A DNA stretch of 51,922 bases from an uncultured bacterium (GTDB lineage Bacteria; Bacillota_I; Bacilli_A; RFN20; CAG-826). Location: contig CASEKC010000008.1 of the NCBI GenBank assembly GCA_949288485.1, positions 1 through 51,922 of the forward strand, in the 5' to 3' direction. Every line of letters starts with the position of its first letter. The first letter of the stretch is position 1. The translations under genes were made by a program, and so were the position numbers. The notes under the pieces were generated by a model that saw nothing but the letters and a program-made list of their open reading frames with translations, made no database searches and was not told the origin of the DNA. This document shows, one piece after another, positions 24,275 to 37,506 of this stretch.

Positions 24275-27200
24275 CTAACTTAATACAACAGTTCCATAAT
24301 CATAAAGAATATTATAACAACTAGTTACATCTTCTCCTTTTTCATTAACTATTTTATTAATAATAACAACATTTTGATAAGTTGAAGGTTTTGAAGCGTT
24401 TTTAATTAAAACAATTGAACCAACTATTTTATCTCCTTCAACTAATCCTTCTACTTCATATATTTCTTCATCTTTTAATGAGGAAATATTATAAAATGAA
24501 GAATTAAAACTATTACTCCTAATGTTTAAATCTCGCTTAGTAACTGAAATAGTCCCAGTACTTTTTTCAATTACATATTCATCATTAACAACATTCCCAT
24601 CTTCATCTTTTAGGACAAATGAGAAGTCATTAACTGTTTGGCCTACTTTTGTAATAGTGCTCCATCCATTAATTTCAATATAGTGCCCTTCTTTTAAATC
24701 GCCTTTAATTTCATAATCTCCATACCAATGTTCTTTGCCATCATAAGTAAAACTTTGAGTACCAGAATAAATATGAAGACTAAAATCGGTTAAATCTCCT
24801 CCGCCAACAGTCGTTCCTCCGCCTTCTTCTTTATCGGTTTGATCATAAGAAGTATCTTCAAAAGCATTTCCTTCTTCATCGGCTCCATCAGGAGTAGGAA
24901 CTTCTTCTCCTTCAGCAAGTGGAGCAACAGTAAATTCAACATTTACCCAGCCCTTTCCATCAACATAAACTTCGCAAATAGCATGACGTTGTAGCGCTAT
25001 GACATCATATGTTTTACCAACAGTTCCTCCATTAATACAAACTCCGCCAGCAATTCGAGTAGGATATCCCATTGCTCTAAGTAATAAAGCTCCTCCACCA
25101 GCAAAAAATTGACAATATCCTGCTTTTGTTTTAGTTAAAAAATCTATTAAAATATCGGTTGAATTAGGGTCTACTAAATTAGTATGTTTACAGTAAAAAC
25201 CATTATTTTTAAAATGATTAATTATATTATTGCAACTGCTTACTAAATCGCTTCCTTTTAAATGATAGTTATTAATTATTTCATTTAAAGTATTTCTTTG
25301 ATATGAATTTAAAGATAAATAATTTTCATAAACGAATTTTCGATATTCTCTCTCCTCGTTTTTAACGTTTTCATCTTTAAATTCGGCATTATCAATTAAC
25401 TGATGATCATCTAAATAATCAAAAGCAAAGCCTTCAACATTAATAGCTTTTGTTTTTAAATCACTTACTATAACGGATAAATCATCATTTTGTTTATTTG
25501 GGAAGAAAGTATAGTAAGGGTAAGTATCGTATTCCCTATAACTAATGTTGGTATACTCAAGTTTTCCTGCAAATGTATCCATTTTGCCTTCTAACAAATT
25601 AGGAATAAACTCATATACATTTACTTCATATTTAGATTTATATTCAGGGCCTACAGTCCGTGCTTTGCCATCATAAACACCACTGCTTTGGCCTCTAAAA
25701 AATGCAGATCCTGATTTTGTAGGAGTGTATCTCATAATTAAATTTCCCAACAATTCTGTATCTACATCACTAAATTGTTCGAAAACTGTTTCCAAAGTCG
25801 AAGAATCACCACCACTTGGTACATCACAACTTCCTTCTCCACCTTCGCCCGAACCCTGGCCGGAACCTTTAACGATTTTAACTTTTCCAGGAATAAAATT
25901 AATTTGATAATCATTTGTAACATCTGTATTGAAATTATTGTTTTTAATAGAAAAAGTAAGATTATTATCATATTCACCAATTTCTTTAAAAGCACTTGAA
26001 CTTACTACTGAAATTACATCTTCTTCTACTAATTGCCCATCCCATGAATATTTAGGCCACGACTGTTCTTTGCCAGTATAAGGAAGAGTGGTGCTTTCAG
26101 AATGTATGGTAATTGTTCTTTTAGAAACTGTATAACTACCTTGAGTTAAATTAATTTCATAATTTTTAGTATAATCAGTTCTTCCTAGTTCGTCATAAAT
26201 TTTAACGGTTAAATTGCCTTTATGTGTTCCGGCATGTAAAGCTTCATAACTATTAATATATGTATTTACTGTATCTCCATTTAATAAATCACCAGAAACA
26301 TTTACTCGAGCAATATTATTGTAAATTTGCCCATCATAAGTTTTATCTACATAACTAATATTAACTGAAATTCTTCTTGGATTAATTTTATATTCACCAC
26401 AATCAAAAGTAACTTTATAACTATCGTTTATAATAACTCCATACTTATTATAAATTTTAAAGGTTGGTTTGTTATCGTAAGTTCCAACGTTAATATAACT
26501 AGGCATTGATAATTCAATTCTATCGCCATTAATAAAACTACCTTCAGTGATTTTATAAGAAACTTCCCCACTATAAACTTTCCTATCATAAGTTTTAGTA
26601 AAATCATTTGTTTTTATAGTAACTTCTCTAGGCTTAACTGTAACTCTTGAATCAGAAGTAAAATCTACATCATAAAATCTTGTAACATCTCTATTAGCTT
26701 TATCAGTGAATTTTAAAGTTGGGCGATTAGCAAATGAACCACCATTAATAAAGTCTTGTTTATTAACTATTTCAACTTTATCTCCTTCATAAAGGGTTCC
26801 ATTTGTTAATTCTAAATTATCAGTATGATGACTTGTTCCATCATAAGTGAATTCATCTTTAGAAGTAAAAGTTACATTACGAGATTTTAAAGAGACTGTA
26901 TAAGATGATTCAAAATTAAAATCATAACAATAAGTAACATCTTCTCCTTCATTATTAATAATAACAATACTATTTGGATCAAAACTTACGATAGCTTTAT
27001 TGTCATTAAAGCTATCGTAATTAAAATAAATATCCAATAATTCATCATTACCAACTAAAGATAAATTTAAAGAAGGAGTATTGCCATAAACAGAATATAA
27101 AGATGAAACTGTTACATCAACACTTTTAGGTAAAATAGTAAATTCTGTTGGATTTCCATAATAATATCCACCAAAGATATTTTTTGAAACACCTCTAATT

Positions 27201-27496
27201 TCATAATTTCCAGCATATTTTGGTTCAGTTAAACTCCATTCTTCACTTCCGGCTTTTTTAAATTCATAATGAATATAGTTATCAAATAATCCATAGGAAG
27301 AATAATTTAGTTTTTGCCCATATTGGACATCACTAACCTTGATTTTATCAATGATCATTCCTTTTATAAATAAAAGCGTTCCTGCCGTTCCAACTAAAAT
27401 AGCAAGTAATATTAAAAGTAAGATTCTAAATCTATAAATAAACTTATATATCGATAAATATCTTTTTATTTTATTTTTATATACTTCTGTTAACAT
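24275..27496 (-). CDS. membrane-anchored MBG-repeat transglutaminase-like surface protein
   Basis: A 1073-residue protein with a single membrane segment near residues 23-46 and no lipobox or LPXTG, so it is held by its N-terminus with the rest outside. Four clear MBG-type beta repeats (TYDGxxY... GDxxxV... YxVxxxxG pattern) plus a YGX-type repeat fill roughly residues 110-530. A Gly/Ser linker (GSGQGSGEGGEGS) follows, then a helical region and a transglutaminase-like domain with Cys795, His838 and Glu854 where Asp is usual. Two more MBG-like repeats end it. It is a paralogue of the next gene upstream, 3 nt away. The substrate is unknown: peptide cross-linking or cleavage are both known for the fold. 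Confidence 0.85.
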   Translation of the reverse strand: MLTEVYKNKIKRYLSIYKFIYRFRILLLILLAILVGTAGTLLFIKGMIIDKIKVSDVQYGQKLNYSSYGLFDNYIHYEFKKAGSEEWSLTEPKYAGNYEIRGVSKNIFGGYYYGNPTEFTILPKSVDVTVSSLYSVYGNTPSLNLSLVGNDELLDIYFNYDSFNDNKAIVSFDPNSIVIINNEGEDVTYCYDFNFESSYTVSLKSRNVTFTSKDEFTYDGTSHHTDNLELTNGTLYEGDKVEIVNKQDFINGGSFANRPTLKFTDKANRDVTRFYDVDFTSDSRVTVKPREVTIKTNDFTKTYDRKVYSGEVSYKITEGSFINGDRIELSMPSYINVGTYDNKPTFKIYNKYGVIINDSYKVTFDCGEYKINPRRISVNISYVDKTYDGQIYNNIARVNVSGDLLNGDTVNTYINSYEALHAGTHKGNLTVKIYDELGRTDYTKNYEINLTQGSYTVSKRTITIHSESTTLPYTGKEQSWPKYSWDGQLVEEDVISVVSSSAFKEIGEYDNNLTFSIKNNNFNTDVTNDYQINFIPGKVKIVKGSGQGSGEGGEGSCDVPSGGDSSTLETVFEQFSDVDTELLGNLIMRYTPTKSGSAFFRGQSSGVYDGKARTVGPEYKSKYEVNVYEFIPNLLEGKMDTFAGKLEYTNISYREYDTYPYYTFFPNKQNDDLSVIVSDLKTKAINVEGFAFDYLDDHQLIDNAEFKDENVKNEEREYRKFVYENYLSLNSYQRNTLNEIINNYHLKGSDLVSSCNNIINHFKNNGFYCKHTNLVDPNSTDILIDFLTKTKAGYCQFFAGGGALLLRAMGYPTRIAGGVCINGGTVGKTYDVIALQRHAICEVYVDGKGWVNVEFTVAPLAEGEEVPTPDGADEEGNAFEDTSYDQTDKEEGGGTTVGGGDLTDFSLHIYSGTQSFTYDGKEHWYGDYEIKGDLKEGHYIEINGWSTITKVGQTVNDFSFVLKDEDGNVVNDEYVIEKSTGTISVTKRDLNIRSNSFNSSFYNISSLKDEEIYEVEGLVEGDKIVGSIVLIKNASKPSTYQNVVIINKIVNEKGEDVTSCYNILYDYGTVVLS

Positions 27497-27499
27497 AAT

Positions 27500-29648
27500 T
27501 TATTCGACCTTTAAATACCCATAAATATATTTAATATCATAATTTCCAGTAACAACTTCATCTTTGCTATTTGCGATTGCTTTTATAATGACTATAGCTT
27601 CTTTCATCCCTTTACTAGTAAGCGAATTACTTATATAGGCAGAAATTTTATCGCCACTAGCTAAACCTTTACTTTTAAATTTAACTTCTAAAGGTTCTCC
27701 ATCAAAAGTTTTAGAAATATTTTCAGTTTCAATAATTAACTCTCTTTTTGTAATCATTAAGTTACCAAAATCTTCTTTAACTTTATATTCATCTGTTACA
27801 TCGTTAAAATTTTCATCAATAATCATATAAAATGGTTTATTTTCAATCTCACCTGCATTATATAAAGTATTATTTAAAGAATATATTAGTTGATGATTAT
27901 CTTTTAATTTTCCATTTACGATTACATCATCATCTGTAGAACTTAAGACTTTGCCATCATATTCTTTTACGACATCATTAGTTCCAATAGTAATATCAAA
28001 TTCAACGTCAGAATTATAGGTTGGAGGAAGATTTGGAGGCATAACACAACCTGGAACCATTGGAGCAACAGTAAATTCAAAAGTGACCCAGCCTTTTCCA
28101 TCAATATAAACTTGGCATTGAGCATGCCCGCAAGTTGGATTATAGTAAATTTTATCTAGGCATTCTCCGTTCATACCATATCCACAAATAACTCTTGTTG
28201 GATATCCTAATGCTCTTAAAATAATAGCTCCAGCAGAAGCAAAAATGTCGCATTTTCCTATTTTAGTATCAGTCAAAAAACTAACTACATAATCATCTGC
28301 GTTATAGCATTCTAAATTTGAAATATTATACAAATATTCACTTTTAAATAAATTAATAATTCTTTGTACAGAATCAAGTAATGAATCACCATTTAAGTCT
28401 TTTTCAGCAATAAAATCATCAATGACAGATTTTGTTGAATTTGGAATATTCATATAATTTTCATAAACAAATTTACGATATTCTAATTCTTCATTTACAT
28501 AATTTTCATTAGAAAAAGAAACATCGTCAATCAAACTATGCTCAGTAAAATAATCAAAATTATATCCTTTAATTTCTACTGTATCACTAGATAAATCGCA
28601 AATCGTATAAGAATCTTGATTCTGCAAACTATCTAAAATAGGATAAGTCGCTGCATAATCAAAATCTCTATTTTTGTAGGAATCATCTTTATATGTAAGT
28701 ATTCCTGAAAATTCTCTTTTACTATTTCTTAATAAATCAGAAATAAATTCATGAGGATTAACACCATATTTAGGCTTATATTGATTTTCAGAAATTAAAA
28801 AGGCTTTCCCTGTATAAACTCCAAAAGCAAAATCTACAAATAAAGAACCACCCACTTTTGTTGGGGTATAAGTAAATGCAGGTTCGATTGCTGTTCCATA
28901 GTCTTTAAATTCAGTATCATCTATATCAACTTGGACAGTATTATTGCCAGATTGACCTTGATTAACTTCAACTTTCTCTGGAAATTCTTCATCACTGCTT
29001 GTACTTCCACCTTGAGATTCATCTACATTAGTAATGATGATAATATCCATATTGATAAGAAATATCATAATTTTTAGTAACTTCTTTTGAATCCTCGGTA
29101 AAAATTTTGACTGAAAAAGTATTTTCATGAAAACCTTTTGTATTAAACGTTTTAAATCCAGAAAATTCTAAGTAATCGTTATTTAAAAGATGCCCTTTAA
29201 TTGTAGAAACTCCTTTATCCCCATGGTCAGAACCATCATCTGGAAAAACAGCAGTTGCACTTTTTAATGTTATTTCAACAGGTAATACTTTTAAAATACC
29301 CACATCAAGATTGAGATTATAAGAGGAAGTAACATTTTGCCCGTTTCTATCTAAAATTTTAACATCAAAACAATCAGTATATTCTCCAGCATTAATAACT
29401 TCTTTTTTTGTTGAAATCTCTATATTATCTCCAGTTAATAAACCCCCACTTGTTATTTGATAAGGAAAATCCGCTTCAACTTTTTCAGCATTATATGTAG
29501 TAGTATAGTCTTCAATTTTAATAGAAATAGGAGTTTCAAAAAGTCTTAAAACACCAAAAGTATTTAAACCAAAAAGAGTAGCTACGACAATACTACAAAA
29601 AGCAATAACAGTAACTATTAAGACTAGTATTTTTGTTTTTGGTTTCAT
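27500..29648 (-). pseudogene. second MBG-transglutaminase surface protein, frameshifted
   Basis: Two frames join into one gene of about 715 residues. The first (29648-29028) gives an N-terminal membrane anchor (about 7-28) and two MBG-like repeats; it stops at TAA 29028. The second frame (to 27500) continues with a Ser/Glu linker, the helical region, the transglutaminase-like domain (Cys, His and Glu at residues 293, 335 and 351 of the fragment 29128-27500) and two MBG repeats. One extra base near 29036-29046 (in the minus-strand stretch GGATATTATCATC) explains the break. Everything else is intact and parallel to the downstream paralogue, so the lesion is recent, phase-variable or a sequencing error. 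Confidence 0.8.
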
Positions 29649-29669
29649 CTTTCTTTTCCTCCTAAAAAA

Positions 29670-31046
29670 TTAAAATTGAACAAATTTCTTCAAATATTCT
29701 CTAGATAAAGGCATTGAGTCTTTACCATAATATTCATCTAATTCATTTAAAAATTTATTAATTGCAGGTCCAAGTCTTAAAAAATCTTTTGATTCTAATT
29801 TTCTTAAAATCTTTTTAGAAACAAAATCATCAAAAGCTTCTTCTTTACTTCCTCCGCATTCAACATATAATGGAACATATTTTAAAATTTGATTTAACAT
29901 ACGATTACCAAAATTAATTGAGAAATTTTGATTTAATAACTCATCAATAATATTAATCCACTTCATTACAACTTTATAATCATCACTTACGGTAAATTCT
30001 TTTATTTTTTCATCACAAATATTTTTAAAATCAGTGTTAGAAATCTTTCTTTCTTTAACTTTTTCTCCCTTAAATGGTGTGGCTTTTTTATTTAAATTTA
30101 AAACCATTGAACGGTCATAAACTTTATCTGAAATAGCAAAGGTAGATTCATCATTATTTGCTGTTCCTAAAAAATAAACATTATCTTTAATTAATAATTT
30201 GCCTTCTTTTAACATTCTTGGGTCATTGATCCAAACATCATTTGTAATTTCAAGTTTTCTTCTATCTTCATCTGGATATTCTAAAAGAGAAAGAAATTCA
30301 GCAAAATAATATTCAATTCTAGCAATATTAACTTCATCTAAAATAATTATATAAATCTTGTCGTCCAAATTAGATTTATATAATTCTTCTAAAAGTAAAG
30401 TTTCGTTAAATTTTTTAGTAAATTCATTAAAATATCCGACTAAATCACTTCTTTCTTTCCACATTGGTTGAATAGCTACTGGTTCTAAAACATTGCCAAT
30501 AAATTTTTCAAAGGCTAATGCAATTGAAGTTTTACCAGTTCCACTCATACCTTGAAGAATCATGAGTTTAGAAACACCTAAATTTGATATAAATGCTCTG
30601 ATATCTTCAATGTCGTAATATAAATTTAACTTTTCAGCACAATAATATCTAAATTCATTACAAAAAGTGCTTAAAGAAGTAATTTTGTCAAAAACAATTT
30701 CTTCTCTTTTTTCATTATCTAAATCATAAAGTTTAGAAAAGCGGTATGCATTTTTATCTTCACTGTCTTTATGAGTTAAGTTTTTAACCTTCAAATAAGA
30801 TTCTCTATTAAAAATAAACTCTTCCTCAGCATCGCTTTTTAAAGTAAAAAGATAATAAACAACATAACAAGAAGGAATAATAAAAAGCATAACAATTACT
30901 ATATAAACTAAAGGATTAGTTAAAATAAAACCTCCTCCATCGCTTAAAGTAAATGCTAAAAGGAATGATAAAAAGAATAGTCCAAGAATTAAATCAACGA
31001 CCATCAATATAGCACAAATTTGATCGATTAATTTTCTATTAACCAT
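29670..31046 (-). CDS. membrane-anchored McrB-type AAA+ ATPase
   Basis: This 458-residue ATPase has two N-terminal membrane segments (about 8-33 and 43-67) followed by a cytosolic AAA+ domain of the McrB/dynein-related class. Walker A is GMSGTGKTS at 166-174, Walker B IIILDE at 233-238, with NIARIEYYFAEFLSLLE after it. Sensor 1 is GTANNDE (294-300) and a conserved Arg follows in DKVYDRSM. McrB proper is soluble, hydrolyses GTP and drives a nuclease through McrC; the membrane anchor here is unusual. It overlaps the DUF2357 gene by 8 bp and precedes the transglutaminase genes by 21 bp, indicating a shared operon. Confidence 0.85.
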   Translation of the reverse strand: MVNRKLIDQICAILMVVDLILGLFFLSFLLAFTLSDGGGFILTNPLVYIVIVMLFIIPSCYVVYYLFTLKSDAEEEFIFNRESYLKVKNLTHKDSEDKNAYRFSKLYDLDNEKREEIVFDKITSLSTFCNEFRYYCAEKLNLYYDIEDIRAFISNLGVSKLMILQGMSGTGKTSIALAFEKFIGNVLEPVAIQPMWKERSDLVGYFNEFTKKFNETLLLEELYKSNLDDKIYIIILDEVNIARIEYYFAEFLSLLEYPDEDRRKLEITNDVWINDPRMLKEGKLLIKDNVYFLGTANNDESTFAISDKVYDRSMVLNLNKKATPFKGEKVKERKISNTDFKNICDEKIKEFTVSDDYKVVMKWINIIDELLNQNFSINFGNRMLNQILKYVPLYVECGGSKEEAFDDFVSKKILRKLESKDFLRLGPAINKFLNELDEYYGKDSMPLSREYLKKFVQF

Positions 31047-32559
31047 TTATCTTCTCCTTCTTTTTTAATAATTCACGAATCTCTTTTTTCTTCTCTTTTT
31101 TAATTACTTTTTTAACTTCTTTCCATTTATCTTTGAAGTAATTAGTAAAAATATCAAAATCCTTTTCTAGTTCATTAAAATAAACTTCATCGTTCTTTTC
31201 TTTTTCAAATTCTGGATTAATACGAATATTAAGAGCTCTATTTATTGCTTTAAGTTTATTTATTTCTTCTTCATATTCTTTTTTTAAAGCTTCTTTTTCA
31301 TCTTTTAACTTTATAACTTCATTATTTAATAGTTTTGTATCTTCTTCATAACGATTATTTAAATCTTCATAGTTATAAGTTAATGTTTCAATTTTTCTAT
31401 TTAAATCTTTCTTTACTTCATTTAACTTATTCAAATCATCTTCTTTTGTTTTATTTAATAATTCATCTTTATTTTTTAATTCATCTTCAAGTTTAAGAAT
31501 GATATTTGTTATTTCTTCTTTATTTAAAGATTCACTAGCAAAAATTTCAGAAATCTTATTAATTAATGTTTCATGGTTTAATTTTCTAATATCTTCTTTT
31601 TCATTTATATATTCTTCTTCTAAAAGTGGGAATAAATCTTTTGATTCAGAATAAGAAAGGAAAGTTAAAATTGTTGGAATAAATTTAAAGAAATTAATAT
31701 ATGAATCGCTCAATTTATCTAATTTAATTTCACTTTTTTCAATTTCAAAACCATCTTTATTATAGTTTTTTAAATATTCATAAAGTTCATAACATTTAAC
31801 AAAATTAGGATCATTTTTTAAGACGTTATTTTTTTGAATTGGTTCACTAATTAAAGGAAGTTTTGCAACAATTGAAATTAAATCACTTTTGAAAAACTGT
31901 TCAATTGTTGAAGTAATTGCATTGAGTCTATTAATTAAATCTTTATTAACATCGTTTTCTTCGACCTTTAAATCTGTATGTCTAATATCATCAATTGAAA
32001 TATCATAACTAATTGAATCTTTAAAAATAGTAACGTTATTTTTTAAGGTTGTTTTAATTTCTAATATTGATTGAGCTTCTTTAATTTTATCAAAACGCAT
32101 AGAAACGAATGATTTTAAAAGTAAAAGTAAATAAACTAAAAATTTATTTTCGTATAATCCAAAATCATCATTTTTTTCAACTATCAAAAGCTTTCTAGGT
32201 TCAACATCTTGACTTACTTCATTGAATTTTCGAATATTATTTGAATGTTTAGCTAAATCAACGATAGAATCTTTAGAAACTCTTTTAATTTTTTCAATAT
32301 CAACAGTTTCGCCTGTATTTAAAATAAATCTTCTTCCTTCTAAAATCGCACTTGAAATAAAAGGTAGATAAAATTCGATTTTTTCAATCCAATCAGATTC
32401 AATTTTTATAGAGTTTTCAAAAGTATTAATCTCATTAAAAAGAGATGGGGAATTTTTAACTAAATCTCCAAGTTGTTCTAATTTTGGATTTTTTGTAACA
32501 ACATCTAAATATTGTTTTAATCCTTTATATTGATTATACTTTCTACCACTTCTATTCAT
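31039..32559 (-). CDS. DUF2357 McrC-side protein with coiled coil, no nuclease
   Basis: This 506-residue protein has the DUF2357 pattern: EPRKLLIVEKNDDFGLYENKFLVYLL (about 120-145, pivotal YENKF at 136-140) and SEPIQKNNVLKNDPNFVKCYELYEYL (about 238-263). DUF2357 proteins normally accompany McrB ATPases and end in a PD-(D/E)xK nuclease. Here the last 170 or so residues are a Lys/Glu-rich coiled coil with no visible nuclease motif. It sits between the two ATPase genes, 3 nt after the first and overlapping the second by 8 bp. It is probably the adaptor that couples ATPase rings to something other than DNA cleavage (inference). Confidence 0.7.
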   Translation of the reverse strand: MNRSGRKYNQYKGLKQYLDVVTKNPKLEQLGDLVKNSPSLFNEINTFENSIKIESDWIEKIEFYLPFISSAILEGRRFILNTGETVDIEKIKRVSKDSIVDLAKHSNNIRKFNEVSQDVEPRKLLIVEKNDDFGLYENKFLVYLLLLLKSFVSMRFDKIKEAQSILEIKTTLKNNVTIFKDSISYDISIDDIRHTDLKVEENDVNKDLINRLNAITSTIEQFFKSDLISIVAKLPLISEPIQKNNVLKNDPNFVKCYELYEYLKNYNKDGFEIEKSEIKLDKLSDSYINFFKFIPTILTFLSYSESKDLFPLLEEEYINEKEDIRKLNHETLINKISEIFASESLNKEEITNIILKLEDELKNKDELLNKTKEDDLNKLNEVKKDLNRKIETLTYNYEDLNNRYEEDTKLLNNEVIKLKDEKEALKKEYEEEINKLKAINRALNIRINPEFEKEKNDEVYFNELEKDFDIFTNYFKDKWKEVKKVIKKEKKKEIRELLKKKEKING

Positions 32560-32562
32560 AAA

Positions 32563-33855
32563 CTAACCAACAATATTATATTTAGAAACGTATTCTTTAC
32601 ATTCCTTCATTGAATCAACCCCAAAAACCAAATTAAGTTTATCAATAAATGGTTTTACAGCAGTTGAAAGTTTTAAAAAATCTTTTCCTTCAAGTTTTCT
32701 TAAAATCTTTTTAGCGACGAAATCATCAAAAGCTTCTTCTTTACTTCCACCACAAGCAACATAAACTGGGACATATCTTAAAATTTACCCACTCATACGA
32801 TTACCAAAACTTATTCCAAAAGATTCGACGATAAGTTCATTAATTTTATTAATCCAGTTTTGAAGTTCATCATAATCACTGGATTTTTTAAATGATTCTT
32901 CAGCTTCATTAGCAAGTTTTAAAAATTGAGTATTAGAAATTTGACATTGATTTACTATATTTCCTTCAAAACTTTCAGCTTTTTTCTCTAAATTTAAAAC
33001 CATTGCTCTATCATAAACTTTATCAGAAATAGCAAATGTAGATTCATCATTATTTGCTGTTCCTAAAAAATAAACATTCTCCCCGATTTGAAGTCTTCCT
33101 TTTTGTAATTTTTTAGGATCTCTATCCCAAACATCATTAGTAATTTCTAATGTTCTTTGTTCGATGTTTGGATATTCTAAAAGAGATAAAAATTCAGCAA
33201 AATAATATTCAACACGAGCAATATTAACTTCATCTAAAACGATAATATAGATTTTATCGTTAAAAGTTGCGTCATATAATTCTTCTAATAAAGGTGTTTC
33301 ATTAAACTTCTTAGTAAATTCATTAAAATAACCGATTAAATCGCTTCTTTCTTTCCACATTGGTTGAATTGCAATTGGATCAAGAACGTTATTAATATAT
33401 TTTTCAAAAGCTAAAGCGATAGAAGTTTTACCAGTACCACTCATACCTTGAAGAATCATAATTTTTGAAGTAGCTAAATTAGCAATAAAAGAGCGAATAT
33501 CGTCAATTGTGTAATAAAGTTTTAAGTTTGAAGCACAGAAATTTCTAAAATCTTCTGAAAAAGTTTTTAAAGAAACTACATTATCATATTCAATTTGAGC
33601 TCTTTTTTTACTATCTAAAATTAAAAGTTTGGAAAATCTTTCGCTATCATTATTAGCAGCTTCTTCTCCACTTCCGATTTCTTCACTCAAATCTAAAATT
33701 TCTTTATTCTTTTTATTTGATCCTTTAATAATAAATGTATTATTTTCTTTTAAATATTTATAAAGAATAAGACAAGAAATAACTGCTAATATCAAAAATA
33801 CGATAGTAGCAACAACTAATAGAACAATTTGTGATACTGTGCTAGTTAAAACCAT
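32563..33855 (-). pseudogene. second membrane-anchored McrB-type ATPase with internal stop
   Basis: The frame from ATG 33855 (AAAGGAG site upstream) encodes one membrane segment (about 8-32) and an AAA+ domain very similar to the downstream ATPase: Walker A GMSGTGKT at 137-144, IYIIVLDEVNIARVEYYFAEF, and GTANNDES. At 32787-32785 a TAA replaces the CAA (Gln) of the paralogue (NRMLNQILKYV against NRMSG-stop-ILRYV). The frame then continues intact for about 74 codons to TAG 32563. A single C-to-T change explains it. A truncated protein of 356 residues, with the whole ATPase core, would still be made. Confidence 0.8.
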
Positions 33856-33868
33856 AATAAATGCTCCT

Positions 33869-35851
33869 TTAATTTCTATCTTCTGCTTTTCCACACCAAG
33901 TACAATAACCATCTACAAAGTTATGATTTTGGAAATTTGATTTACCTTCAACTTTATATTTATTTCCACATCTATGGCATAAATATTCGGTATAAGACTT
34001 TTCTACACAAGTTCCTTCAAAAGTTGAACTTACTTCAACATCCATTGTTTTTATAATTTTTCCATTGTTATCTACAATAAAAGAAACATCATCATGAATA
34101 CATTCACTTAAAAAATACGTATAATCTCTTTTTAAATAATATGAAACATTATAATTTGCTTTAGTAATCTTACTATAATCATAAATATAAACTTCATTAC
34201 AGGCGATTCCTATAAAAGAGGTTCTTTGTAAACCAATAGGTTCATAATTGATAATTAAATCTCCATCAATAACAGAGTTTCTAAAAACATTTAATCCAAG
34301 AGCTAAATCTGGATTATTTAAAGTAACTTTCTTTAAAGTTTTAATTTCAGCAAATGCTTTAGAATTAATTGTATCTAAATTTTCACCAACATAAATTTCT
34401 TTTAAACTAGTTTTTTCAAAAGAAGATAATCCAATGTTGTTAACTTTAGATAAATCGACATATTCTAAAGATGAACAATTTAAAAAAGCTTCACTTTCAA
34501 TTTCTATTTCATTAGAAAAATAAACCTTTTTAATATATTCGTTATTTTTAAAAGCGCCTTCTCCTATTGAAACAACTTTATATCCATCAATTTCTTTAGG
34601 AATATATAAAGTATTAAATTTAATTGGTGATTCAACAATTTTTATACCTTCTTCTTCGTTTTCTTCATTAATAAATTCATAATTTAAATAATTTTCGATA
34701 TTTCTATAAATATTTAATTCATAAGAGGCATAAAAATTTGCTCCTAATGATGTTATAAAAATAATGGCGAAAGTAAGAAGGGAATATAAAACACCTTTAA
34801 TATGAAGCGTTTCACATTTAACACCATTTTTATTTAAATATTCATTATAAATTGCTTCGTTATTAATATATCTAAACTTTTTAAAATAAAGAGTGTTATA
34901 AGAAATCTTTAATTCTTTAATATTTTTATTTTTCTTAATATTGATCTTTTTAAAATGTTTATCAATTTTATAAGGAAAAGATAAAAGAGGTTCGTTATTT
35001 ATATCAATTGCTTTTATTAAAATTTCACCTTTAATAAACTCTCTTTTTTTAATTAATTTAATAATAAAATATTCACTATTATCTTTTTTATCCTTTTTAG
35101 TTTTAACATTAAATTTTAAATATTTATAAATATTAAATTCTTTACTTTCTTCTTCATCTTTTTTCTTATTTTCTTTAAAAACAAATCTTTTTTCTTTATT
35201 TAAAAAGAAAAGAATTAAAAAAAAGATAATAAATGTTAAAAGAAATAATATTGCTCCTAAAATATAAAAAATAGGAATATAAAACACACTCTCAATTAAT
35301 TTATCCCATGAATCATATATAGAAGAAGGAGAAAAAGAAAGTGTAATTAAATAGATTAAAAAATAAGCTAATGTAGCACTTATACTAAAAAATAAAGAAG
35401 AGAGGATATATTTATAAACACTCTTTTTAATATCTTCATTTTCTATAAAATAGATATCATTAACTTCTATAATATCTATTTTAAAAGATGAAGCATTTAA
35501 AGGAAGTTTAACTATATAATCTTCTTTATAGTTATTTAATACATCTTTAATATTTAATATTTTTAATACTTTTTCATTCTTATAACATACAACATTAAAA
35601 TTAATATATTTAACATTACCTTTTAATTTTAATGCTAAAAAACGATTATTACCTTCTTTAATAATCTTATAAGAATTAACATATTCTTTATATTTATTAT
35701 CAACATCAAATAAAGCATAATTCTTTTCATTTGATGAAATTAAAGTATCTTCATCAAAACTTTTAACATATTTAACTTTTAAAAAGAATAAACCCAATAA
35801 AAGGAATAAAGCACTAATAATTAATGAAATAAGTAAAAATAAAATGTTCAT
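33869..35851 (-). CDS. LRR (BspA-type) membrane protein with Cys-pair tail
   Basis: This 660-residue protein has predicted membrane segments at about 2-24, 146-172, 186-218 and 352-376. A soluble part lies between the second pair and the fourth. The C-terminal third (about 405-525) has LRR_5/BspA-like repeats such as IPKEIDGYKVVSIGEGAFKNN and SLEYVDLSKVNNIGLSSFEK. The tail has CHRC (625-628) and CTWC (650-653), like the cysteine-paired repeats common on Firmicutes surface proteins. BspA-type LRRs usually bind host or surface ligands. It is the first gene of the operon, and the next ATPase starts 13 nt after its stop. No ribosome site is obvious. Confidence 0.7.
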   Translation of the reverse strand: MNILFLLISLIISALFLLLGLFFLKVKYVKSFDEDTLISSNEKNYALFDVDNKYKEYVNSYKIIKEGNNRFLALKLKGNVKYINFNVVCYKNEKVLKILNIKDVLNNYKEDYIVKLPLNASSFKIDIIEVNDIYFIENEDIKKSVYKYILSSLFFSISATLAYFLIYLITLSFSPSSIYDSWDKLIESVFYIPIFYILGAILFLLTFIIFFLILFFLNKEKRFVFKENKKKDEEESKEFNIYKYLKFNVKTKKDKKDNSEYFIIKLIKKREFIKGEILIKAIDINNEPLLSFPYKIDKHFKKINIKKNKNIKELKISYNTLYFKKFRYINNEAIYNEYLNKNGVKCETLHIKGVLYSLLTFAIIFITSLGANFYASYELNIYRNIENYLNYEFINEENEEEGIKIVESPIKFNTLYIPKEIDGYKVVSIGEGAFKNNEYIKKVYFSNEIEIESEAFLNCSSLEYVDLSKVNNIGLSSFEKTSLKEIYVGENLDTINSKAFAEIKTLKKVTLNNPDLALGLNVFRNSVIDGDLIINYEPIGLQRTSFIGIACNEVYIYDYSKITKANYNVSYYLKRDYTYFLSECIHDDVSFIVDNNGKIIKTMDVEVSSTFEGTCVEKSYTEYLCHRCGNKYKVEGKSNFQNHNFVDGYCTWCGKAEDRN

Positions 35852-35998: not shown

Positions 35999-37506
35999 CT
36001 AAATATTTACTTTTGAATCTACTAATTTTTCTTTATTTTCACTAGTTAACTTATTATTTTCATTATCTAATCCATGTTTTTTATTATATTCAATTAAATT
36101 TTTATCACATTTTTCTTTTACTCTTTTTCTTAAGATGAAAAACGTAATAAATTCAAGAAGGAAAGCAATAATCCAAGAAACTGGATAACATAAATATAAA
36201 ATACCTAACGAATGATTCCACATTCCTTCAATAGGAGAATAAACAAAATAATTCCAAATAATTCTTAATATACAACAAGATACAAAAGAATAAATAGTTG
36301 GAATAAAACTATATCCTAAGCCTCTTAAAATATCGCATTGAGTATCCATTAATCCACATAAAAAGTAGGTAAGTAAAATTACAGTCATTCTTTCAATGGC
36401 ATATTTAACCACTTCGCTATCATAATTCGCACTCATATAAATTTGTAAAAGTTGATGAGAAAAAGTTAGTGAAGCACATCCTAAAACAACTCCTACTATT
36501 ACAACAGTAACAAGAGAAATTATTTCAATCTTTTTAATATTTTTATAAAATCCTCTACCTACATTAGCACTTATAAAAGCTGGAGTTGCGGTAGAAATAG
36601 AATACATTGCAGTATAAGTATAATTTTCAATATTTGCTGCATCGGTATTAGCTGTAACTACAGCTGGAGGCCAACTATTTACGGTAGTTTGTAAAATAAC
36701 ATTAGAAATAGAAAAGTAATTCCATGAATTCCACTTGGTATTCCAATTTGAAGTATTCTTTTAAGTTCATGTTTATGAAATTTTAATTCTTTAAATCTAA
36801 AACGAATAAATCCTTTATTAATATAAAGAAATAAAATAACTAAAAATGCACTAACAAATTGAGAAATAACTGTCGCGATTGCTACTCCCATAACTGAAAG
36901 ATTAAAACCAAAAACAAATAAATAATTTAAAGCAATATTTAAAACTCCACTAATTGCTAAAAATAATAAAGGTTTTTTACTATCTCCTACTCCTCTAAAA
37001 GCAGCTGCTCCAAAATTATATATAAGCATAAAAGGAACGCCTAAAAAATATATTGATAAATAGGTTGTAGAAAGATCAATATAAGTTTCACTAACATCCA
37101 TCCATTTTAAAAATGTTCCCGCTAAAAAGAAACAAGTTATTCCAACAATGATTCCACATATTGTAGCAAGTAATAAACCACTATGAAGAGCTCTATTTGC
37201 TCCATTTTTATCACCCTTCCCATAATATCTTGAAATAACAACGTTAGCTCCTGCACTTAAGCCAATAAATCCATTAGTAATTAAAGTAATAAGAGAACCA
37301 TTAGCTCCTACTGCTGCTCCAGCGATAGTACCTTCTTTTTGCTGAACAACTATTAAATCAAATGAGTTATATAAAAGCTCTAAAATTCCAACAATGATAA
37401 TAGGAAGAGCATATATTAAAAACTTTTTAATTAAAATTTTAGTATCACCATCTGTTAAATTTATCTCACTATTGTTTTTGAAAAAATTCTTAATTTTTTC
37501 GACCAT
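35999..37506 (-). pseudogene. MATE-family multidrug efflux transporter, frameshifted
   Basis: Two frames (37506-36679 and the frame ending at 35999) join into one MATE exporter of about 502 residues with about 12 membrane segments. MATE proteins export drugs or metabolites using a Na+ or H+ gradient. Seen are LPIIIVGILELLYNSFD near residue 34, ANVVISRYYGKGDKN, GAAAFRGVGDSKKPL and, after the break, ANIENYTYTAMYSISTATPAF. The break lies at minus-strand TTTT (36715-36712), where one more T restores the frame. The 5' half has an AAGAGGG ribosome site. Confidence 0.85.

Follow-up and report, generated by a model that had tools for sequence, protein, structure and literature searches.

A conserved operon of membrane-anchored McrB-type ATPases, a nuclease-free DUF2357 protein and transglutaminase surface proteins: a candidate envelope machine

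McrBC is familiar as an enzyme of DNA restriction. A stretch of 51,922 nucleotides from an uncultured bacterium (GTDB lineage Bacteria; Bacillota_I; Bacilli_A; RFN20; CAG-826), analyzed at its full length and called the window here, raises the question of why McrB-type ATPases and a DUF2357 protein should be encoded together with proteins of the cell surface. The explanation we consider probable is an NTPase machine, anchored in the envelope, for assembling, activating or positioning the surface proteins of its own operon. The operon, which occupies positions 24275-35851, consists of six genes, listed here in order of transcription:

33869..35851, minus strand: LRR membrane protein, 660 aa, an open reading frame (ORF) with an N-terminal membrane/beta region and C-terminal BspA-type LRR
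32563..33855, minus strand: ATPase 1, membrane-anchored McrB-type AAA protein, truncated here by an in-frame TAA
31039..32559, minus strand: DUF2357 protein, 506 aa, McrC-like domain at about 1-305, coiled coil at about 310-504
29670..31046, minus strand: ATPase 2, membrane-anchored McrB-type AAA protein, 458 aa, AAA_5
27500..29648, minus strand: TG1, membrane-tethered MBG-type repeats and a transglutaminase core, frameshifted near 29042
24275..27496, minus strand: TG2, membrane-tethered MBG/YDG repeats and a transglutaminase core, 1073 aa

ORF calls bear out the one-strand block, with the gene order and spacings that an earlier note had read from the letters, but that note overlooked two disruptions. 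The intergenic distances computed from ORF ends are 13, 3, -8, 21 and 3 bp, two of the five being valid only if the disruptions in ATPase 1 and TG1 are read through. The ATPase 1 ORF is called at 33855..32785, where a TAA (32785-32787) falls about 75 codons before the expected end; past this stop the frame is open as far as 32563, and the intact protein in relatives (loci L032 and L033) has 449-451 aa. A one-base insertion near 29042 breaks TG1 into a pair of ORFs (29028-29648 and 27500-29128), while relatives have a single ORF of 712-726 aa. A MATE-family transporter gene upstream of the operon (35999-37506) is likewise split, by a one-base loss near 36717, and is unbroken, at 502 aa, in L032 and L033. 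ATPase 1, TG1 and the MATE gene are all intact in the close relative G113 (locus L032), and the disruptions in the window may be sequencing errors or may reflect decay of this copy. Pfam finds LRR_5 (BspA-type) in the LRR protein (6.7e-16), Transglut_core in both TG1 (1e-13) and TG2 (9.3e-11), and, weakly, YDG in TG2 (4.4e-4); an Rfam search of the window gave no match. The six-gene order is kept in at least seven other loci within the genus, two of whose genomes have two copies of the locus, and the arrangement ATPase-DUF2357-ATPase recurs in 63 loci, so the gene order is not a matter of chance and the co-occurrence that the note had predicted is widespread.

Both window ATPases match Pfam AAA_5, and ATPase 2 also weakly matches the NCBIfam model PRK11331 (McrB). 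A profile built from 29 of the ATPases finds McrB as its sole match among all solved structures (E 2.4e-5 to 5.9e-5). Nearly all of the proteins carry the NxD signature GTANND[E/D] (ATPase 1 reads GTANNDES) in place of the NxxD GTPase motif of classical McrBC; this signature defines a branch apart from classical NxxD McrB (Bell et al. 2024, PMC11090510). In every one of the 144 ATPases checked, one or more hydrophobic segments precede the AAA domain and none follows it, so that the membrane anchoring proposed for the window extends to the whole set. The ATPases also match the PADLOC candidate-defence model PDC-M26A (1e-37 to 1e-44). At L175, L176 and L177 a DUF2357 gene lies beside a third ATPase form of about 600-670 aa; two of the three loci have a signal-peptidase-like neighbor, and several genus genomes that have no T locus (as defined below) contain matches of this length.

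The DUF2357 protein resembles McrC at its N-terminal end. Its match to PF09823 (DUF2357) is partial and straddles the threshold (24.1 and 22.5 bits against a cut-off of 23.3), and 9 of 34 members match that model. Foldseek returned no significant match for the full-length structural model (pLDDT 83) because the long helix swamps the search, and VIA was needed for this reason. With the full model, VIA ranks the four McrC entries first to fourth (Z 7.5-8.8, the next unrelated row scoring 6.7); with the domain-only model the signal is weaker, McrC coming first at Z 7.3 but tied with STAT5a at 7.0. Residues 310-504 are modeled as long helices only, the sequence profile of the protein matches only coiled coils among solved structures, and Pfam finds no nuclease in any of 34 members. 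On the helices-only model and the Pfam result we reject a hidden PD-(D/E)xK nuclease in the tail, and the earlier description of this protein as lacking a nuclease stands. Some DUF2357 proteins of the P form described next (L053, L066, L067 and L059) have very long, variable charged tails, reaching about 1,740 aa in total.

Examination of 96 DUF2357 loci, drawn by similarity to the window so that proportions are not a census, separates two forms, T (63 loci) and P (28), with five others. The T form, to which the window belongs, has the arrangement ATPase-DUF2357-ATPase followed by MBG/YDG and usually transglutaminase surface proteins. The P form has one ATPase, DUF2357, a SipW-type signal peptidase, exported fibre-like proteins and usually EAL proteins. 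On the ATPase tree a single branch divides P from T (SH-aLRT 100, by a quick method). A signal peptidase is present in all 28 P loci and next to DUF2357 in none of the 63 T loci, while a protein with the YDG-type motif is found in 56/63 T loci versus 2/28 P loci. Of 26 signal peptidases from P loci, 25 match the SipW model, with Ser-Met and His invariant, and the exported proteins of P loci carry a SipW-type N-terminal motif. The latter are called "fibre-like" from that motif and their genomic setting only, since neither Pfam nor NCBIfam gave a meaningful match that would place them in a named family. EAL matches were found in 30 of 49 scanned P-locus neighbors; GGDEF proteins accompany the EAL proteins in the P operon, and P loci also carry a phosphorylase-family protein.

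Copies of the block turn up in both Bacilli and Clostridia of the gut. Of 146 genomes sampled in the family, 70 encode a DUF2357 relative, and the ATPase is encoded by 148 of 395 in the class; named records come from uncultured Bacilli, Anaeroplasmataceae, Erysipelotrichaceae, Lachnospiraceae, Oscillospiraceae and the isolate Anaerocaecibacter muris. Other T loci encode a small membrane protein upstream, and the N-terminal 235 aa of the LRR protein match its profile (hhalign probability 96, E 1.3e-9). G113 (L036 3211-16691) and G085 (L035) each have a second T locus at the head of the division and cell-wall cluster, immediately following mraZ, rsmH (mraW) and an FtsL-like gene of 75 aa.

Transglutaminase domains within the genus are tied to the T locus. 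The genome that contains the window has exactly two transglutaminase-core matches, both inside the operon. Six T-bearing genomes of the genus have 18 transglutaminase domains between them, every one inside a T locus, which upholds the tight linkage to transglutaminase/MBG surface proteins that had been suggested from the window; none was found in seven genus genomes without a T locus or in four other genomes of the family. An exact test on the six versus seven genus genomes gives 1 in 1,716, a rough figure since the genomes are related. Across the wider T set, 36 of the 55 loci whose neighborhood is uncut by a contig end have a transglutaminase downstream and 19 show no match in a profile search, so the domain is not obligatory in T. 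TG1 and TG2 both have a single N-terminal membrane segment with a short cytoplasmic end and keep the catalytic Cys and His, the acid position being Glu rather than Asp. Comparison of the window with G113 separates machine from exported proteins: identity is 98.9-99.8% for the two ATPases, DUF2357 and the neighboring QueT protein and 97.6% for the LRR protein, versus 45% for the C-terminal part of TG1 and 51% for TG2. Judged from these sequences, the exported proteins are swapped or diversified between close relatives while the machine is unchanged. Elsewhere, the membrane segment of surface proteins at L118 (13665-15005) and L141 (13496-16351) is followed by a run of W-x-x-F/L-P repeats (DFPWDTLPWDDLP...).

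The two ATPases of a T locus are often nearly the same protein over their motor portion. In roughly half of the T loci where both can be measured, the AAA domains are 99-100% identical at the protein level, and in such loci the N-terminal membrane parts are only about 14-51% identical. The near-identical tract, examined in 22 such loci, spans 1,063-1,176 nt with 0-16 mismatches (65 in one locus), beginning 64-100 codons before Walker A and ending at the stop codon. An assembly artifact is unlikely, for the tract appears in a one-contig genome (0 mismatches), a two-contig genome (12) and L103, the cultured isolate Anaerocaecibacter muris CLA-AA-M11 (16), with synonymous differences. A single copying event for the tandem was also rejected, as upstream and downstream copies are intermixed on the tree (about 30 changes each); the same intermixing fits repeated conversion. 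Gene conversion confined to the motor module would be the simplest reading. In the window's genus the two copies are 60-77% identical, so conversion has not been recent there. Near-identical AAA modules joined to differing membrane parts are as expected if both motors work in one ring. At L107 the two modules differ by 57 synonymous and 3 non-synonymous codons, a pattern that suggests strong selection to keep the protein the same. A third ATPase-like protein is present in many other T loci, and none of 30 has Walker A; at L081 (3860-7225) an AAA-like protein without Walker A carries, as a fusion, a glycosyl hydrolase 3 C-terminal domain and an Fn3-like domain.

Several known systems share parts with this one. 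McrBC of E. coli and T. gammatolerans has the same pairing of a McrB-type AAA protein with a McrC-type DUF2357 protein, but the window's version is membrane anchored, has NxD instead of NxxD, lacks a nuclease fold and shares its operon with surface proteins; the DNA-binding domain of McrBC was not seen in the operon. The SipW-TasA/CalY fibre operons of Bacillus resemble P in combining a SipW-type peptidase with SipW-type signal sequences, unlike the window's T form, which has no SipW. No McrB/DUF2357 machine is known from those Bacillus operons. CoCoPALM, described in a single paragraph, has an NxD NTPase with an FtsB-like TM segment and coiled coil and a signal peptidase family protein (Bell et al. 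2024, PMC11090510). P fits that description because of its SipW-type peptidases, exported proteins, and EAL and phosphorylase-family proteins. T shares with CoCoPALM an NxD NTPase with N-terminal TM segments, a coiled-coil DUF2357 protein and a tie to exported proteins, but differs in having two ATPases around DUF2357, no signal peptidase next to DUF2357, and MBG/transglutaminase surface proteins; transmembrane segments are present in all ATPases, and the window's own show no clear coiled coil. The closest functional analogue, by comparison of parts, is the MoxR-DUF58-transglutaminase operon (PFNA, Bifidobacterium), with its AAA+ ATPase, membrane transglutaminase-like protein and diverging secreted Ig-like protein (PMC8430577). 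There, however, the AAA protein is not of the McrB/NxD type found in the window, and the partner is DUF58 and not DUF2357; Pfam gave no match to a DUF58/vWA partner in our operon. The parts of the system, like its P form, are already known or anticipated. In the papers searched we found no description of the T form or its link to transglutaminase, nor of the converted tandem motors or the pseudo-ATPase, though the supplement of Bell et al. may list T loci; the main text of PMC11090510 makes no mention of transglutaminase, and among papers listed for McrB with transglutaminase none is about such a link, one of them dealing with HEPN fusions. The reading in the earlier note holds for anchoring, nuclease loss and surface linkage, its proposed building, folding or extracting of surface proteins being a putative role, and it falls short in having missed the NxD branch and CoCoPALM, the sister form, the probable gene conversion, and the stop and frameshift.

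As we picture it, an AAA+ machine built from McrBC parts would be anchored in the envelope. The two McrB-like NxD-type NTPases, with their different N-terminal anchors, would form a mixed ring in the cytoplasm, on which DUF2357 would dock in the manner of McrC through its McrC-like N-domain, the long coiled coil replacing the nuclease. Nucleotide hydrolysis would then move or remodel its partners in the membrane, namely the LRR protein and the MBG-transglutaminase proteins at their N-terminal segments, and this remodeling would control assembly, activation or positioning of the surface proteins, whose transglutaminase-like domain could then crosslink or cleave extracellular targets. We infer ring formation, docking, transmitted force and the surface substrate from an observed basis: the protein families, the membrane segments, the absence of a nuclease fold, operon conservation, transglutaminase co-inheritance, AAA near-identity and surface divergence. 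Against this reading stand the Glu at the acid position, the 19 of 55 T loci without a transglutaminase, the PADLOC match and the two broken genes in the window.

The main rival is envelope anti-phage defence, in which the NTPase would sense infection at the membrane and modify the surface or kill the cell. The match to PDC-M26A favors it, as does the inclusion in the NxD branch of the CoCoNuTs, predicted defence systems (PMC11090510), and a patchy distribution within the genus together with fast-diverging surface proteins would suit an arms race. Yet the same divergence and patchiness are seen in surface antigens, the operon has no nuclease or other recognizable toxic effector, and the sister P form is accompanied by signal peptidase, fibre-like and EAL proteins rather than defence genes. 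Few of 96 proteins flanking T loci match PADLOC, mostly to GajB models hit once each, as would be expected of a single general UvrD-type helicase. On balance we consider a defence role unlikely.

A shade less likely still is a motor for secretion or extraction, in which the AAA ring would pull the MBG-TG proteins out of the membrane or into it and so serve for translocation or quality control, not as an assembly factor. Substrate extraction is frequent among membrane-anchored AAA motors, and the TG proteins have one N-terminal membrane segment and a short cytoplasmic end; but neither a protease domain nor a channel subunit was found, the TG proteins already carry Sec-type N-terminal segments, and polypeptide threading is not known for the McrB/DUF2357 design. 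The LRR and TG proteins might instead sense the surface, with the NTPase and DUF2357 relaying a signal inward and doing no work on the surface proteins. LRR and Ig-like repeats do bind ligands, and the sister operon has EAL and GGDEF proteins, but the T operon has no EAL protein, kinase or transcription factor, and the near-identical complete AAA modules point to a ring whose two subunits both work; a sensor or regulator is improbable. We retain the envelope-anchored assembly machine as the probable reading. On a broader proposal we are nearly evenly divided, leaning slightly against: that T represents an undescribed class of surface machine, sister to CoCoPALM, in which two membrane-anchored McrB-type NTPases, often joined by a third, inactive paralogue, would make up a mixed ring that a nuclease-free McrC drives or gates; this ring would assemble or activate transglutaminase surface proteins, its two motor domains being kept identical by recurrent conversion.

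If the machine reading is true, candidate-defence databases that match these ATPases may be mislabeling surface machines. The T/P split would offer a direct comparison of the same motor type serving two cargo systems, and the McrB/McrC motor would be a general NTPase device, reused here for building the cell surface.
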